From a virus: a stretch of DNA of 33,384 nucleotides. The translations under genes were made by a program, and so were the position numbers. The DNA is taken from positions 1 through 33,384 of IMG/VR virus record IMGVR_UViG_3300049043_000100; one strand, 5' to 3'. The notes under the pieces were generated by a model. That model worked only from the letters and a program-made list of their open reading frames with translations. It was not told the origin of the DNA and searched no databases. Positions 9,469 to 24,107 of this stretch are shown one piece after another. Numbering within the stretch: the stretch's first letter is position 1; each line of letters starts with the position of its first letter.

Positions 9469-10199
9469 TTATCGAAGGTTTGGAGCATTCGGTGATTGAC
9501 CATCAATTCCATCTTCTGAGATGTCAGTTTTAATTTTGAAATATGTATTTAATAGCTTCTGAGAGGTTAATTCCAACACCTGTTTTTCTAGATAGCCTGG
9601 AACAGGAGATTCTCTATCTAGAGGATTCTTGCATAACTCTTCGTTTGTATATTGTACATTACCACATCCACACTCTGGATAGAGAATAGAAATAGGTACA
9701 TCTTCCTCAAATAAAGCTACCAATCTGATTGCTTGTAGTTGAGGATTGCTTACATACAAATAACCATTAGAAATCCAATAGTATTCCTCTTTTTTAATTA
9801 TAGGAAGTTTCAGCAGATTTACATATCTATTGACAGTCGTTTCTTTTAATTTCTTTCCTTGTCCGCCCATGTCATGTTAATTGAGTAGACACCCTGGATA
9901 ACATATTGGTAATTACCCTCTGTTATCCTTGGGAGCTTGAATTTTGACCTTCCTACAGTGCAGGGGTCTACATAATCACAACATTCAGAAATAGGAACTT
10001 CTACCATTTCCAAACAAGGAATAGTAGTAAAAACTGTATCTGTTGCCCATAACTTTCTTAAATTGGTTTCCCTTTTTATCAAAAGAAAGGCATTGTTCTT
10101 AATCTCAGACATGATTGCTCTATCTGTTATCAAACTATCTGTTGACAACAATTTATGCATACTGCGAACAGAAGATACTAAATATCTAAAAGTACTCAT
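9469..10199 (-). CDS. Tail ring protein of crAss-like type
   Basis: About 243 residues with one frame jump near 9860. The N-terminal part reads MSTFRYLVSSVRSMHKLLS, then LIKRETNLRKLW, FTTIPCLEMVEVPISECCDY and a switch of frame at QGVYSINMT. The second part has NRYVNLLKLPIIKKEEYYW, NGYLYVSNPQLQAIRLVALF, ECGCGN, and ends in LNTYFKIKTDISEDGIDG. The pattern matches a ring/neck protein family of crAss-like phages in my memory. Two Cys pairs (ECCDYVDPC and ECGCGN) might bind metal. The start lies one base after the stop of the upstream GIY-YIG gene. Confidence 0.68.
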
Positions 10200-10200
10200 T

Positions 10201-10997
10201 TTAATTTAAAATTTTATTACTCCAAATATATCCCTTGTATATATTATTTTTTCTATTAACTGCGTTGTGTATACCACTTGTAAATAGTCCCGTTTTATTA
10301 GATGCGTCTGAGTAAGATGAGTATTCACAAATAAGTTCTTTGTTTAAGGAATATTGAAATATAGGATTACAAATTTTTGATAATCTTTTATTTATTCCTT
10401 CATTATAATTTACAGGATTAATTTTAGAACCACAATACTCATATCTCCACTGATATCCTTTAAATGTTATTCCTTTGAGACTAGGTATCCTATTATTTTT
10501 TAAATTGAAAAATCTACCTATATCTGAAATACTATCCCATTCCTTAATAAAATTTCCTTCTAAATCGTATTGGTATGCTTTTTTAGATTTAGAATTATTT
10601 TTTCCAAACTTTCCTCTACTATAGTTATTTTTTGACAGCTTTGATTTTGTTTCATTTGAAACAATTTTTCCCTGATTACCATCTCCACCATTCGTTAAAT
10701 TAGATAATGTTCCTGTTTTTTTATCTATTCTACCATATAAATTAATAAATTCAATTTCTTTTTGTTTAATGAATTCATAATTATTAGATTCTATTAATAT
10801 TTCAATTCTATATTGAGTTTTTTAATTATATCATTATATATTTTACTTTATGTTTACGATACGCTCTGTGATATTCGGAAGTTAAAGTTTTGAATTTTCT
10901 TTTTATTAGTTTTTGTCCCAATTCCTATATAAAATGGTTCATTTTTATCAAGTCTAATATATCTATATAAATAATATTTGCCAATATCCTCAATCAT
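10201..10997 (-). CDS. GIY-YIG homing endonuclease with two NUMOD1-like repeats
   Basis: About 262 residues with frame jumps near 10870 and 10820. The start MIEDIGKYYLYRYI is followed by EPFYIGIGTK, giving a GIY-YIG core (YLYRYI and YIGIGT). A middle segment has EIEFINLYGRIDKKTGTLSN and LTNGGDGN, typical of this endonuclease group. The C-terminal half holds two similar units, AYQYDLEGNFIKEWDSISDI and IFQYSLNKELICEYSSYSDA, each followed by a helix and KGYQW or KGYIW. These are NUMOD1-like DNA-binding modules. An alternative start at 11025 overlaps the upstream stop as TAATG but needs an extra frame jump. The stop at 10201 is one base from the next start. It sits between the phosphoesterase and ring genes with no extra spacer. 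Confidence 0.83.
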
Positions 10998-11024: not shown

Positions 11025-12279
11025 TTATAAATATTGTTTGAATATATTTGTCATTCCATTGTCTTCTTCTATAAGAAAGGCAGTCACCTCTCCTTTAGCT
11101 CCTACATATCCATCTTATCATCCCATCTACTTTTAGCTGTTGAGAATGCTGGAATTTGATAAAACTTAATTCCTCCAAAATCTTGACTAAGTTCATGGTG
11201 TTTATCACCTGTAAATATGTAGAAATGATCATGGTCTGACCATTCTTGTTTAAATTCTATTGGGAATATACTAGCTAATTTAGCAGGCTTTATAGCATCC
11301 CCATGATTGAACATAATTGCTGTCTTTCCAAAGCTGTAATACTTTCTGTAGGAACTTTCTACATCGAATGTAATTTCGTTGTAATTTCTATAATATATTG
11401 ATAACCAATTAATTAAGTGCCATCCTACATACTCATCATGATTACCAGGAACATAAATAACACATACATTTGCACCTGTTTCTAATAAGTTGTCTATTAC
11501 ATCTATTTCATGGTCACATATACGCTTAAATGATTCATGATATGAAAGAATGTTATCCTGAGGAGTACCCTTAGTTGTGGTAGATGTAAACTCACTATTG
11601 AATTCATCTGACCCTATTACATACACTATTTCTTCTAATTGGTTTGATATTTCAGCTTGATAGACAATTGTCTTTATTCTGTCAAGCACCATTTTAAATC
11701 TATCTTCAATATCATTCTGTCCATGAATATCCACCTTATTATAATGAGCATCTTGTTTGTTTATTACAAGAGCTGCCAAGGGGGATTTATTAATTGTTAA
11801 GAACTCTCTACCTACATTCTTCTTTTCTGGAGCTTTGTAATTGCTCAGAAAGATAAGATACTGGTCTTGGAACAGTTGTTCATCCTTTTCTTAGATAACC
11901 AAGCTTTCACCTGCCAGCGTGAGAATTACCATTTCCCCAGTAGTTCTGTACGTATTTAGTAATTTCCCATTTAGTAGTGTCTATTTTACACTTTTCAATT
12001 AACTCATCCAATGTCTTGATTTCATTGGCTAAACTTAGGGTGATTTCCCCTTTTCCGTTAACAATATCCTTCTTCAAATTTAACAATCTTATCTTCAAGC
12101 TCTGCTATATATATTGCAGATTCAGCTTCATTTCTTATGTATTCTCTGTCTTTTAGTTGTTTTAATAATTCTTTCACATCCGATTCTTGAATCCCTAGCT
12201 TTTCAGCATAGAATTTTGTACTTTTTTTCTGTCTCAAAAGCCTTTCTAGCTGAGATAAAAGATGTTGATTTTCAGACAT
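11025..12279 (-). CDS. HTH plus calcineurin-like metallophosphoesterase
   Basis: About 415 residues across several frame jumps. The N-terminus (MSENQHLLSQLERLLRQKKS, then FYAEKLGIQESDVKELLKQL) looks like a helix-turn-helix. A linker with TTKWEITKYVQNYWGNG follows. The phosphoesterase domain starts near 11810 (INKSPLAALVINKQDAHYNK) and carries the metal-binding series DAH, GSDEFNSE, PGNHDE, FNHGD and TGDKHHE; one residue of the usual GD motif is read as GSD. The end is EEDNGMTNIFKQYL. Proteins with this HTH-phosphoesterase arrangement are common in Bacteroidota phages and act on an unknown nucleic-acid or nucleotide substrate. It is the first gene after the promoter at 12307-12339 and is transcribed with the tail ring genes. 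Confidence 0.78.
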
Positions 12280-12339: not shown

Positions 12340-12390
12340 TTATTTTAACTAAACTGGTTATTGGTAATAATTAAATTAGTTATGTTCTAT

Positions 12391-12427
12391 AAATAAAAAC
12401 TTCCAGGGGTAGAAACCCCCAGGAGAA
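12391..12427 (-). terminator. Terminator of the appendage cassette
   Basis: On the minus strand CTTC-T-CC-T-GGGG pairs with CCCC-T-GG-AAG around a short TTTC loop and is followed by TTTTTATTT. A second, weaker stem (CCCTG with CAGGG) lies just upstream at 12429-12450. It falls directly after the lectin gene and before the next promoter. Confidence 0.75.
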
Positions 12428-12440
12428 GCCCTGAAAACCA

Positions 12441-12456
12441 ATAAACAGGGATTTTT
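12441..12456. repeat. Direct repeat copy 2, after the lectin gene
   Basis: Plus-strand ATAAACAGGGATTTTT, identical over 16 bases to 13332-13347. It starts five bases after the stop codon of the lectin gene and partly overlaps the upstream stem of the terminator region. Confidence 0.85.
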
Positions 12457-12461
12457 GAATG

Positions 12462-13328
12462 TTATAGTCCAAATCTTGTTTTATAAAAGTTGTAGTTTTG
12501 TGCAACTTCATTGTCACTTAGCGGTCTATTATATATTAATGCAAGATATTGTTTTGTATATGATCTTACAGCACCACCGTAGCCTGTTCCAAATTTTAAA
12601 GTTACATTACTATTATTAATAGGATGTCCATATTGTCCTATCATATATGTTTTACTAATAAGTACACCATTCAAATATATACAATTAAATGTACCACTAT
12701 ATACACTATTAGGAGCAGGCGAATAAGTGTATGTAAACATATATTTAGTATTACTACTAATTATATTACTGGCATTATTTTCTATATTAAAACCATAACC
12801 GTCTGACATCCAATGTCTCATACCACTTATATTATAAGGCGCACCTATTGTACCTATTTCAGTTGTAAATTTAATAGTAATGCCAGAAGCTTCACTTTTA
12901 TCTAATATAACACTTCTTGATCCTACATTAGGAGTTTCTGCTATAACTGAAAATGTATAACCTCCTTCTACATAAAAATTAGAAGAATCATTTGTATCAA
13001 CTTTAGACGTATCTCCTACAAAATTTATATAACTATTATCTCCTGCATTAACAAAACTTGCTCCAGAAAGACTTAATGTAGCATTTCTATTATTGCCACT
13101 TAAATCATATAATGTATTTCCACTTCCTGGATAAGAAGCTGTGTTCCCCCAATCATAAAACATGTATAATCCAGAAGTAATTAATGAAGGGGCAGAAACA
13201 TTATAACTATTAATTTCTATCCATTTACCCACCTTAGGCATGGAATAAGCAACAACCATACTGCTAGGAACTGTTCTTCCTGAGCCATCAATTCTAATGA
13301 ATGTTCTTAATTTTTTATCAAATGACAT
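12462..13328 (-). CDS. Laminin-G/concanavalin A-like lectin tail protein
   Basis: An intact 288-codon frame, one of the few in this window. I start it at 13328 (MSFDKKLRTFIRIDGSGR) because the preceding gene stops at 13361 and this N-terminal motif recurs at the start of short tail proteins of Bacteroidota phages; an in-frame ATG at 13385 would overlap. From about residue 60 the sequence has the jelly-roll pattern of LamG/ConA-like domains: GLYMFYDWGNTASYPGSGN, LYDLSGNNRNATLS, YTFSVIAETPN, FNCIYLNGVLISK and LALIYNRPLSDNEVAQNYN at the C-terminus. Such domains bind glycans, so a receptor-binding role at the host surface is likely. It is the last gene of the appendage cassette and is flanked by exact 16-bp repeats. 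Confidence 0.8.
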   Translation of the reverse strand: MSFDKKLRTFIRIDGSGRTVPSSMVVAYSMPKVGKWIEINSYNVSAPSLITSGLYMFYDWGNTASYPGSGNTLYDLSGNNRNATLSLSGASFVNAGDNSYINFVGDTSKVDTNDSSNFYVEGGYTFSVIAETPNVGSRSVILDKSEASGITIKFTTEIGTIGAPYNISGMRHWMSDGYGFNIENNASNIISSNTKYMFTYTYSPAPNSVYSGTFNCIYLNGVLISKTYMIGQYGHPINNSNVTLKFGTGYGGAVRSYTKQYLALIYNRPLSDNEVAQNYNFYKTRFGL

Positions 13329-13331
13329 ATT

Positions 13332-13347
13332 ATAAACAGGGATTTTT
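13332..13347. repeat. Direct repeat copy 1, before the lectin gene
   Basis: Plus-strand ATAAACAGGGATTTTT, identical to 12441-12456. On the coding strand it lies between the stop of the upstream gene and the ATG of the lectin gene, so the two copies bracket the lectin coding sequence. Confidence 0.85.
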
Positions 13348-13360
13348 AAATATCTAATGA

Positions 13361-14117
13361 TTAAATAAGAGTAAGATTTACCCAAGAAGTTGAACCACTA
13401 AGTGTTGGTGAAGGTATACAACAGCCACCAGTTCCATTCCAACCAACAGTAACATTAGCGCTAGGACTACTAAATCCTGTACTAACACTATTAGCACCAA
13501 CAAAAGTAGGATTTTGTCCAGTGCTGCAAGAAAACATAAAATTACCAACTCCTGGAGCATTTGTAGCTGATGTTAATATAGCAGTTTGACCAGGACTTAT
13601 AGGAAAACTTCCAATATAAGGAATATTAAAAAGTCCTCCAGTAAATGTAGTCCCAAAATCTGTTGAAAATCCTAAATTATTAACCACTGCTGAAGTGCTA
13701 TTGTTATATACAGTTACAGTACCTGTTATTCTAAAATTAGTCCAATATCCATTATCAGTTAACCATACTCTGGCTGCCATTACCCGAAGGAAATGTTTGT
13801 GTATTTCCTGCAAGTTTTGTAATATATTTAGCTAAATCTAGAAATGAAAGTTCTGTTCTAGCTTCAGACCTCCAAAATCCTACAGAGGCAGTAACTGATG
13901 GTGGTACTGGTGTAGGTTGATTGTTTGCTGGAACTTCTTGAGCAATTATCCATCCTGATGATTCATCAGGACCATTCCACCAAGGAATGCCTGTACTTCC
14001 ATATCCATTAGGCGGACCATTATCAATACCTATTCCTAGGTTTCCAATTTTATTGGTTCCTGTGATAATTGCTCCTGTATTTCTAGCAAAAGGTCTACTT
14101 GATGGTTCTGCTCCCAT
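13361..14117 (-). CDS. Appendage protein with conserved N-terminal fibre module
   Basis: I read this as one gene of about 250 residues with one frame jump near 13785. The N-terminus MGAEPSSRPFARNTGAI, then NKIGNLGIGIDNGPP, WWNGPDESSGWIIAQEVP and VGFWRSEARTELSFLDLAKY is a module I have seen at the start of Bacteroidota phage tail proteins. It continues in the second frame as AARVWLTDNGYWTNF. The C-terminal part (VYNNSTSAVVNNLGFSTDFG, SFPISPGQTAIL, WNGTGGCCIPS) resembles the C-terminal part of the gene at 15429-15994. If instead the frame change is real, two genes (14117-13755 and 13781-13361) would overlap. A tail-fibre or receptor-contact role is inferred. Confidence 0.65.
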
Positions 14118-21240: not shown

Positions 21241-22800
21241 GAATTGTGGAATTTCCTCAATCAGCACTGTACGAGACAGGTCTTCAATGAAAATATCACA
21301 ACGGTCTTTCATCCAAAGTTCGTAATCCAGGGAATTTGTTAGCAGAACTGCATACCCTGAGATTTAGCAAAACCTAAGTGGTGACGAGTACCGTCAGCAT
21401 ATCCCCAAGTCATAGAAGGAGCACCCTTCATTCTTACCTCACGAATGTTGTTAACCAAAGAACCATCAGACATAGGAGATACATCAAACACCATGAATAC
21501 CGGGGTTGATTTCTATTCTGACCAAATTCCAGGTTAGTTTGAGGCAAAGTCGCAATTCTTTCAAGTGAATCAGTTCAACACGACCAGTCTTCACGAGTAA
21601 CCATCGCATCGAAAGCAAAGTTGTAAGTGATGTGTTGTCCTTCTCCCTGTAAGTAACGATTACCGCTGATCAGCCATGAAGGTCAAACCACTATTCAAGA
21701 GCGTCAGCCTTTAAAGCTTGTTGGAATACGTCAAATCCAGCTTCATTAGTGTACATTTTCACACGACGGTCTTTAACATCCACACGACGATAGAACAAGT
21801 CACCAAATACAGAACGAATTAAGTTTGCAGTGAATTCACCACGGTTATATTGTACCAGGTTACCATTGTTACGCATACGGTGGTAAACACCAGCTGAGGT
21901 ACGCTTCAGCTCTCGTCTGCTACCGATTAGTTTTAACAGTACCAGGGCGAGACCAAATCATACGCTTAACCTTCAGTTCCAGCATAGATTTACGCATCCA
22001 GAATTCAATAAATGGTTCCCATTTAACATCATTACGTGTAAGGGGTAATTGATTTCTGCGCTGAAGGAGCATACACAAGGATGTCCAAGGGACGACCTGC
22101 AGATATCACGCATCATTTTGTCATCAGCCCACTCAGTGATTTTGTGTTCAAAACCATAACCACTACCGAGAGATTCAAACATTGTGATTTGCTCACCCAA
22201 ACGAGGAAGTCCTAACAAATCTTGGTCAAACTCACCAATGGCAGCATCAACCAATTCTAATTCCAGACCAACTTGTAAAAACGTATGGCTAACAAAATCT
22301 ACAGTGGGGTCGTCTGTAACTAATGTGAAGGAATAAAAGAATCCCATGTTCCAAGGAACTGGATCCTTAATAACGTAAAAACGAGGACCATATTGACGAC
22401 TACCAACAGAAACGATTGCATTCTTAGAGAATTCGTTAGTGTCAAGTACCAATTGGAACTCTTGACCATCAATACCAGGCTTACTTAAGTCAGTGGTAGC
22501 ACTAGGAACATTGATGATTTTCAGGAATCTGTAAGGAACTGCCACTTGCCATTTCCAAGCATCACTGTTATTATCAATGTAATAGGGAGTGCTCTTGTTA
22601 ATCATGTCTAAGAAATCATTGCTGTACAATGAGCTTTGAGTGTAGAAGCTGATGATTTTCTTATCATAATCAGCAGGTTCCGTAGAGTGGAAACTCTCTA
22701 AGTGGTTAGCATCTGTAAGCTTACCAACAGCACGTTTGTCCATAGAGGCCACACGAGCATACGTAAAACCAGTTAGACCTGGGATTGTTTGAATTGCCAT
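21238..22800 (-). CDS. Major capsid protein (crAss-like HK97-type)
   Basis: About 520 residues. Residues 1-265 are in one frame (22800-21973): MAIQTIPGLTGFTYARVASM, WKWQVAVPYRFLKIINVPS, LVLDTNEFSKNAIVSVGSRQ, YGPRFYVIKDPVPWNMGFFY and IGEFDQDLLGLPRLGEQITM. The rest is spread over other frames: RRELKR, MRNNGNLVQYNRGEFTANL, LIRSVFGDLFYRRVDVKDR, FMADSGNRYLQGEGQHITYN, DVSPMSDGSLVNNIREVRMK, GAPSMTWGYADGTRHHLGF and DRCDIFIEDLSRTVLIEEIP. Size, place after a scaffold-like gene and the sequence pattern fit the major capsid protein of crAss-like phages, which has the HK97 fold. The C-terminal P-G-Y-E-L-W-M-K segment is typical. Frame jumps cluster at short homopolymers. Confidence 0.8.
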
Positions 22801-22827
22801 TTTGTTATTCTTTTATTAATTAAAAAT

Positions 22828-24107
22828 TTATAGAGCCCAAGGAGAAGATTGTGAGTTACCAGAGGAAGTTGAACCGCTTCCTTTAGTTTTACTGACTTGT
22901 CTTGCAACTTCCCCAAACAGCTCATTAGATTTTTTCGTAATGCCTGTTTTTTGTATGGTAGATAATGTAGGATCTTTTTCAAGCACTTTTAACAACAATG
23001 CCACTTTAACCTTCATATTATGATTCTCAGGCTTCTTTAAATCCAGAATGGTTTTATCAAAGTCTGTTAGAGTTTCACCACTTGTGGTTTTGTACTTATC
23101 TACCAACAGGAAGTCTTGTAGTTCATTTGCTAATTTTGGATTGATGGGAATACCATCAAATTCTTTAGCTTTCAGTTTGTCCTGGAGGACAGATTGTACA
23201 TTTTGTACGTATTGTTGTTTAATGGCTTGTTTCTGTTGAAGTTCTTGCTCAGCTTTTTGTTGCATTTGCTGGAGCTTTTGAGCTTCCTTCTTAACTAACA
23301 CCTTGTGGTGTTTTGTAGCTACAGATTCTAAGTCACCGTAGTTCTTTAATCTTTCTACCTCTGTATCTACGTCTTCAGGTTCAAATCCCTGATCTGTAAG
23401 TGCTTGACGAATAACTGCCACTTGATTGTTTTCTTGTGTCAGGTCCATTTCAGCAAATGATACAGCTGTATTATATGTGTTGAAATATTCTCTTGGATTC
23501 ACCCCTTTTACAAAGATGGCATCAAAGGCTTGTTGGTAATCATCACCAAACTGTCCAATGAAGTTGTTTACCATTTCAATAGCTCCTTTCTTCTTTTCAT
23601 TTTGAAAGCGCTCTAGAAATGCCTAGGAGTAGCTATATCCAAATCTTCTTCACCCTCTTCCTCATCCTTGGAAAATACACCAAGTTTGAATAGGTCACGA
23701 GATAGGGCTGTGAATTGATTAGCCTCTGGTTCATCATCCTCATCACCAGTGGTGGTGGCAGCAGCTTCAGGCTTCTTAGGAGCTGCTTTAGCTGGTGTCC
23801 CCTCTTCTTCTTCCTCCTCTGCGTTATCACCAAGGAAGTTTGATATAAGGTCTTGACCTGTCAGGTATTTACCATCTTCTTTAGGAACTATTTTCTTTTC
23901 CTTTTAGGAAGGAACATCTGGTTCGGGGGCTGGTTCTGCAGGAGTTGCAGGTTTGATGATTTCTCCACCTGATCAGGACTAGCAGTTGCTGTTTCAGCAC
24001 CGAACAGTCCTTCTAAAAGTTCTGCTCCTCCAGGACCCATTTCCATAGTGTTCTCAATACCAAAGTTTCCAAATGAGGATGGTGTCATCAAGATTAATTT
24101 CAGACAT
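22828..24107 (-). CDS. Scaffold-like acidic coiled-coil protein
   Basis: About 425 residues over several frame jumps. The N-terminal third is acidic and low-complexity: MEMGPGGAELLEGLFGAETA, a Pro/Ala/Glu segment, QDLISNFLGDNAEEEEEEG, then Asp/Glu-rich to SRDLFKLGVFSKDEEEGEED. The remainder is in one frame (23574-22828): NNFIGQFGDDYQQAFDAIF, VERLKNYGDLESVATKHHKV, a Gln-rich coiled coil (KLQQMQQKAEQELQQKQAI), KEFDGIPINPKLANELQDF and a Gly/Ser-rich end. Position immediately before the capsid gene, acidic start and coiled coil are typical of a scaffold or capsid-assembly protein. No protease motif is visible. It is the first gene after the promoter at 24138-24168. Confidence 0.65.

Follow-up and report, generated by a model that had tools for sequence, protein, structure and literature searches.

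The lectin locus of a crAss-like phage

The DNA analyzed here (IMG/VR record IMGVR_UViG_3300049043_000100, positions 1 to 33,384; all 33,384 nt are referred to as the window) is part of the genome of a crAss-like phage and covers 33 kb. Two frame-broken pieces of the Crassvirales hallmark protein CrAss_Ring_2 scored above the Pfam cut-off, the muzzle-like protein crAss_MUZ scored slightly under its cut-off (E=5.6e-6), and portal as well as head proteins were recognised. Frame-broken overlapping ORFs were observed at 9469-10199 (Ring 2 protein), 13755-13813 (preceding adhesin) and 21973-23574 (possibly head proteins), and these broken genes look like indel errors of the contig. Alternative genetic codes were considered for the short ORFs but did not explain them, and single-base indels fitted better. 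The locus of interest is summarized in Table 1. The adhesin gene preceding the lectin gene (u2+u1) is probably a single gene that was split by an indel near 13.78 kb. We also observed an ORF with NUMOD1 motifs (homing-endonuclease-like) that is flanked by the SbcD and Ring 2 genes. The segment containing this ORF, about 830 bp long (10161-10994), is missing in one relative (L044) and, judged from this comparison, is a second gene insertion separate from the lectin.

Table 1. Features of the lectin locus and its surroundings (window positions)
Feature	Position	Strand	Details
ORF with NUMOD1 motifs	10204-10821	-
SbcD-like DNA repair exonuclease gene	11102-11779	-	served to fetch 80 relatives
d1	12058-12279	-	first conserved gene past the element; d0 and the SbcD-like exonuclease gene come next
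Complete two-hairpin element	12380-12461	-	covariance model 82.7 bits, E=2.1e-22
Hairpin 1 of the element			CCCTG-TTTATTGGTTTT-CAGGG
Hairpin 2, core stem-loop	12403-12422	-	followed by AAGTTTTTAT, terminator-like
Downstream repeat copy	12441-12456	-	A-run on the 5' side, then the left arm of hairpin 1 and the first five bases of its loop
Lectin gene (288 aa)	12462-13328	-	ATG 13328-13326, stop TAA 12464-12462
Upstream repeat copy	13332-13347	-	orphan left half of the element, without right arm
Preceding adhesin gene (ARPFARNTG... type)	13361-14117	-	read as two overlapping ORFs, 13755-14117 and 13361-13813 (together u2+u1)

The lectin consists of an N-terminal module (residues 1-48), which it has in common with short proteins resembling adhesins in other phages (L054-L057), and of a putative LamG/ConA-like domain (residues about 42-288). 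In phages outside the group, the N-terminal module was also seen in two tandem copies (L055:4995-5574, L057:5001-5308). The lectin matched phrog_24074 (E=2.8e-9), and no direct Pfam match was obtained for the protein. Residues 42-288 share 30% identity over about 250 aa (E=3e-13) with a domain in the relative L139, which in turn matches Laminin_G_3 at 1e-15, and because of this relationship the name lectin is acceptable. A PDB sequence search gave no useful match and single-sequence structure prediction yielded no usable fold (pLDDT 34). The GC content of the lectin gene (30%) resembles that of d1 (30%) and SbcD (32%), with 35-40% in the adjacent adhesins, and thus base composition is no proof of a foreign origin. 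In L139 and L140, the preceding adhesin itself ends with the homologous LamG domain at its C-terminus, and a small ORF and then a single element come next. Here, one binding domain is therefore found in two architectures, since it is fused to the adhesin in these relatives and not in the window.

The 16-bp repeat and the two-hairpin element

The original prediction had stated that exact 16-bp direct repeats flank the lectin gene, and we found that both copies are indeed exact. The sequence ATAAACAGGGATTTTT occurs on the plus strand at 12441-12456 and 13332-13347 and reads AAAAATCCCTGTTTAT on the coding strand. The spacing was also as described: one copy starts 5 nt past the lectin stop (CATTC) and the other, located between the stop of the preceding adhesin and the lectin ATG, ends 3 nt before this start codon (AAT). 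When the comparison was extended, 19 of 20 bases matched between the copies. No other exact direct repeat in the window reaches 16 bp. In shuffled windows, 0.35 repeats of this kind were obtained over the whole length and 0.02 at distances within 1.5 kb. The former frequency would leave some room for chance identity, but the latter, the tight placement at both gene ends and an additional flank match with the relative L013 make such a coincidence, which had already been called unlikely, extremely improbable. The exact 16-mer was present in 51 viral contigs, only two of which (L013 and L044) share the genomic context; all the others are unrelated in this respect, and the 16-mer alone was uninformative as a marker.

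For comparison, 80 relatives were taken from 405 SbcD matches (64-71% identical). In all of them, the structural genes come first, then the variable adhesin genes and finally d1, d0 and SbcD. It can be seen that the downstream repeat copy belongs to an element which is present in all 80 relatives, one copy each and at the same place, directly after the stop codon of the last adhesin and about 150-160 bp from the d1-d0-SbcD genes (230 bases before d1 examined). Among 44 distinct sequences, the stems of its two hairpins were paired in 95.2% of the cells, and cells changed on both sides numbered 152, compared with 51.7 after shuffling and 13-28 in slid controls. RNAalifold recovered both stems unprompted. 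Of 36 distinct stem-loops, 34 had the same hairpin 1 loop, TTTGTTGGTTTT, and the loops of the window (TTTATTGGTTTT) and of L137 each deviated by one base. With the covariance model, we obtained one match per record at 83-98 bits (records of 14-114 kb), the next best match scoring at most 31 bits. Folding of the window element as a single sequence was not significant (z -0.89), so that the structural case rests on covariation. An Rfam search of the window gave no match, and we found no description of the element in the literature searched, for which journal coverage was incomplete.

Hairpin 2 together with its T-run scores as intrinsic terminator, and a GC-rich stem, a T-run at the gene end and compensatory stem changes were all found. 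These data suggest that the element is a transcription terminator that closes the adhesin cluster. As the downstream copy belongs to this putative terminator, it is there for another reason than cassette exchange. Right after the putative terminator, about 150 nt before d1, the relatives L058-L137 carry a conserved TTTGG ... TACCTTTA, which resembles a Bacteroidota-type promoter (-33 TTTG, -7 TAnnTTTG).

The upstream copy corresponds to half an element and forms no hairpin. One might consider it a functional leader or regulatory motif of the lectin gene (promoter or translation element) with a chance likeness to the terminator arm, since it is close to the ATG and a TATAAT-like hexamer overlaps its end. 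However, it is found upstream of no other gene in the window or in the relatives, sigma-70-like promoter matches occurred at chance frequency, and neither the lack of a hairpin nor a match with the empty site of relatives that runs further 5' than the repeat (see below) favors such a role, which we consider improbable. Both window copies and L013/L044 share a derived loop A (TTTAT instead of the usual TTTGT), and this variant was found, in the pattern searched, in three contigs only of the viral collection. Because of this rare base, the half copy derives from the element of the window lineage itself.

Adhesin exchange and the empty site

When we compared pairs of relatives with 91-99.8% downstream identity (L110/L131, L067/L069, L060/L084, L113/L115, L059/L064, L075/L097, L084/L127), we found that the ends of their last adhesin genes are unrelated. 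Homology resumes 10-19 nt before the loop, which is the foot of hairpin 1, and close relatives thus exchange the C-terminal domain of the last adhesin up to the element. In L059/L064, the left limit of the swap lies in a Thr-rich linker past the shared N-terminal half. In L110/L131, identity is 99.8% over the 600 nt that follow hairpin 1, but hairpin 1 itself differs, which indicates that it can be transferred together with the swapped end. Ordinary homologous recombination would give the pattern seen in these pairs if a conserved terminator lies beside variable sequence. Adhesin exchange at this place is supported by these alignments, and the host-range switching suggested in the original prediction would be plausible for adhesins. 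We also considered whether hairpin 1 is more than a terminator and its loop TTTGTTGGTTTT a DNA or RNA recognition site for a phage factor by which recombination or strand breakage is guided to this place. This is doubtful, but if true, the end of the adhesin cluster would be a programmed hotspot for swapping and adding receptor-binding modules.

In some relatives (L066-L070, L109-L110, L131), the last adhesin gene is up to 861 codons long, and many Thr/Ser-rich linkers alternate in it with small Cys-containing domains. This composition suggests repeated domain gain via linker DNA.

A lectin gene at the locus between the adhesins and d1 was absent in all 80 SbcD relatives. Using the preceding adhesin (u2+u1) as query, we obtained five loci, and ORF 13361-13813 alone retrieved no relatives. 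In L013 and L044, a homologue of the preceding adhesin stands last before the element. Its TAA is followed by ATATTTAAAAATCCCTGTTTAT, the whole element and d1-d0-SbcD, and the lectin is thus an extra ORF between sequences that are contiguous in these relatives. The search for genomes with a single repeat copy and no lectin gene, which had been proposed as a check, was therefore successful. L013 and L044 are about 72-79% identical to the window in DNA and their preceding gene differs past the shared N-terminal part; a near-identical phage pair with and without lectin was not found. When one repeat and the lectin gene were removed from the window, 72 of 73 bases were equal to L013 through the element, with one mismatch. 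In the unjoined window, the upstream copy agrees with L013 up to TTTAT, beyond which the window continues with the start of the lectin gene and the similarity ends. The agreement starts with ATATTT, which borders this copy on the 5' side and matches the empty site as well.

Origin of the repeat and relation to known systems

The half copy, the empty site of L013/L044 and the rejoined match of 72 out of 73 bases indicate that the lectin gene is most likely an insertion. We infer insertion rather than loss and regard as probable the explanation that the lectin gene is a moron-like insertion at the hairpin and the repeat its scar. According to this explanation, the adhesin cluster in these crAss-like phages ends with the conserved two-hairpin element, a putative terminator, and the end of the last adhesin upstream of it is often exchanged among phages. 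In the window lineage, a complete lectin gene would have been added behind the old last gene. The first junction would be located inside hairpin 1, five bases into the loop and adjoining the lectin start codon, and the second one at or past the 3' end of the lectin gene, where the whole element stands. Such an event, with one crossover presumably by microhomology near TTTAT and one homologous crossover in the element, would leave the left half-element in front of the lectin gene, with the whole element following the gene, and these two would form the 16-bp direct repeat.

The original prediction had proposed that the repeats allow the lectin gene to be lost or exchanged as a cassette. Single-copy genomes without lectin (L013, L044) and the presence of a hotspot of receptor-binding variation are in line with this proposal, but exchange between flanking repeats is not supported: different genes between two repeat copies were found in none of the relatives, and the second copy is absent from 80 of 80 relatives. 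If pre-existing flanking repeats served as recombination sites for whole lectin-type genes, L013 and L044 would represent precise loss, and joining the window across one repeat yields exactly their arrangement in a region that is hypervariable. On the other hand, the element is ancestral and single-copy, so that the half copy is derived, and the lectin homologue of L139 occurs with one element only. We therefore consider this scenario unlikely. Since the homologue is fused to the adhesin beside a single element in L139/L140, the repeats are no part of a lectin cassette. The 891-bp unit from repeat to repeat contains the lectin ORF alone and no transposase or recombinase, as a target-duplicating transposon would. 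Taken together, the repeat is real, exact and non-random, yet no purpose-built pair of cassette ends, and it is best read as outcome of lectin insertion. Later precise loss of the lectin between the repeats could occur.

Given the indel-type errors of the contig, an assembly artefact may be involved at the junction. Strains with different last adhesins might have been misjoined to create the half element, and the frame breaks in the Ring 2 protein and the preceding adhesin are compatible with such an error. However, a misjoin requires a genome that already has a half element or TTTAT beside a lectin ATG, and both the lectin reading frame and the junction from its stop to the element look normal. 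This origin of the half copy has, in our view, a very low probability.

If the lectin was inserted at the hairpin, the locus is an example of the addition of a complete extra adhesin and of the scar left by it. More generally, the element is a searchable, single-copy, covarying landmark. In a group of mostly uncultured crAss-like phages, it marks the right edge of the receptor-binding region, which is hypervariable. It allows swapped domains to be listed across metagenomes and receptor-binding change by whole-domain exchange to be studied.

Tail adhesins of crAss-like phages are also diversified by diversity-generating retroelements (PMC12386605, PMC7290462). In contrast to these systems, no template/variable repeat pair was seen at our locus, where whole domains or genes change. 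Short conserved boundary sequences have been hypothesized to mark mosaic junctions in phages (cited in PMC3029335). Similarly, a short conserved intergenic sequence is located here exactly where the homology of close relatives resumes, but it is a covarying two-hairpin element, a putative terminator, present once per genome and on the right side only, whereas the left boundary lies in coding DNA for Thr-rich linkers or further upstream. With intrinsic (Rho-independent) terminators, the element shares the GC-rich stem of hairpin 2, the immediately following T-run and the location at the cluster end; it differs by a second conserved hairpin in front with a nearly invariant 12-nt loop. A phage moron is a gene that separates, in one genome, two genes which adjoin each other in a relative (PMC3029335), and the lectin gene resembles morons as a single extra ORF between sequences contiguous in L013/L044. 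Promoter-like matches at the lectin locus were at chance level and one predicted terminator follows the gene. A possible difference from morons is that the lectin shares the predicted operon terminator, half of which would have been duplicated.
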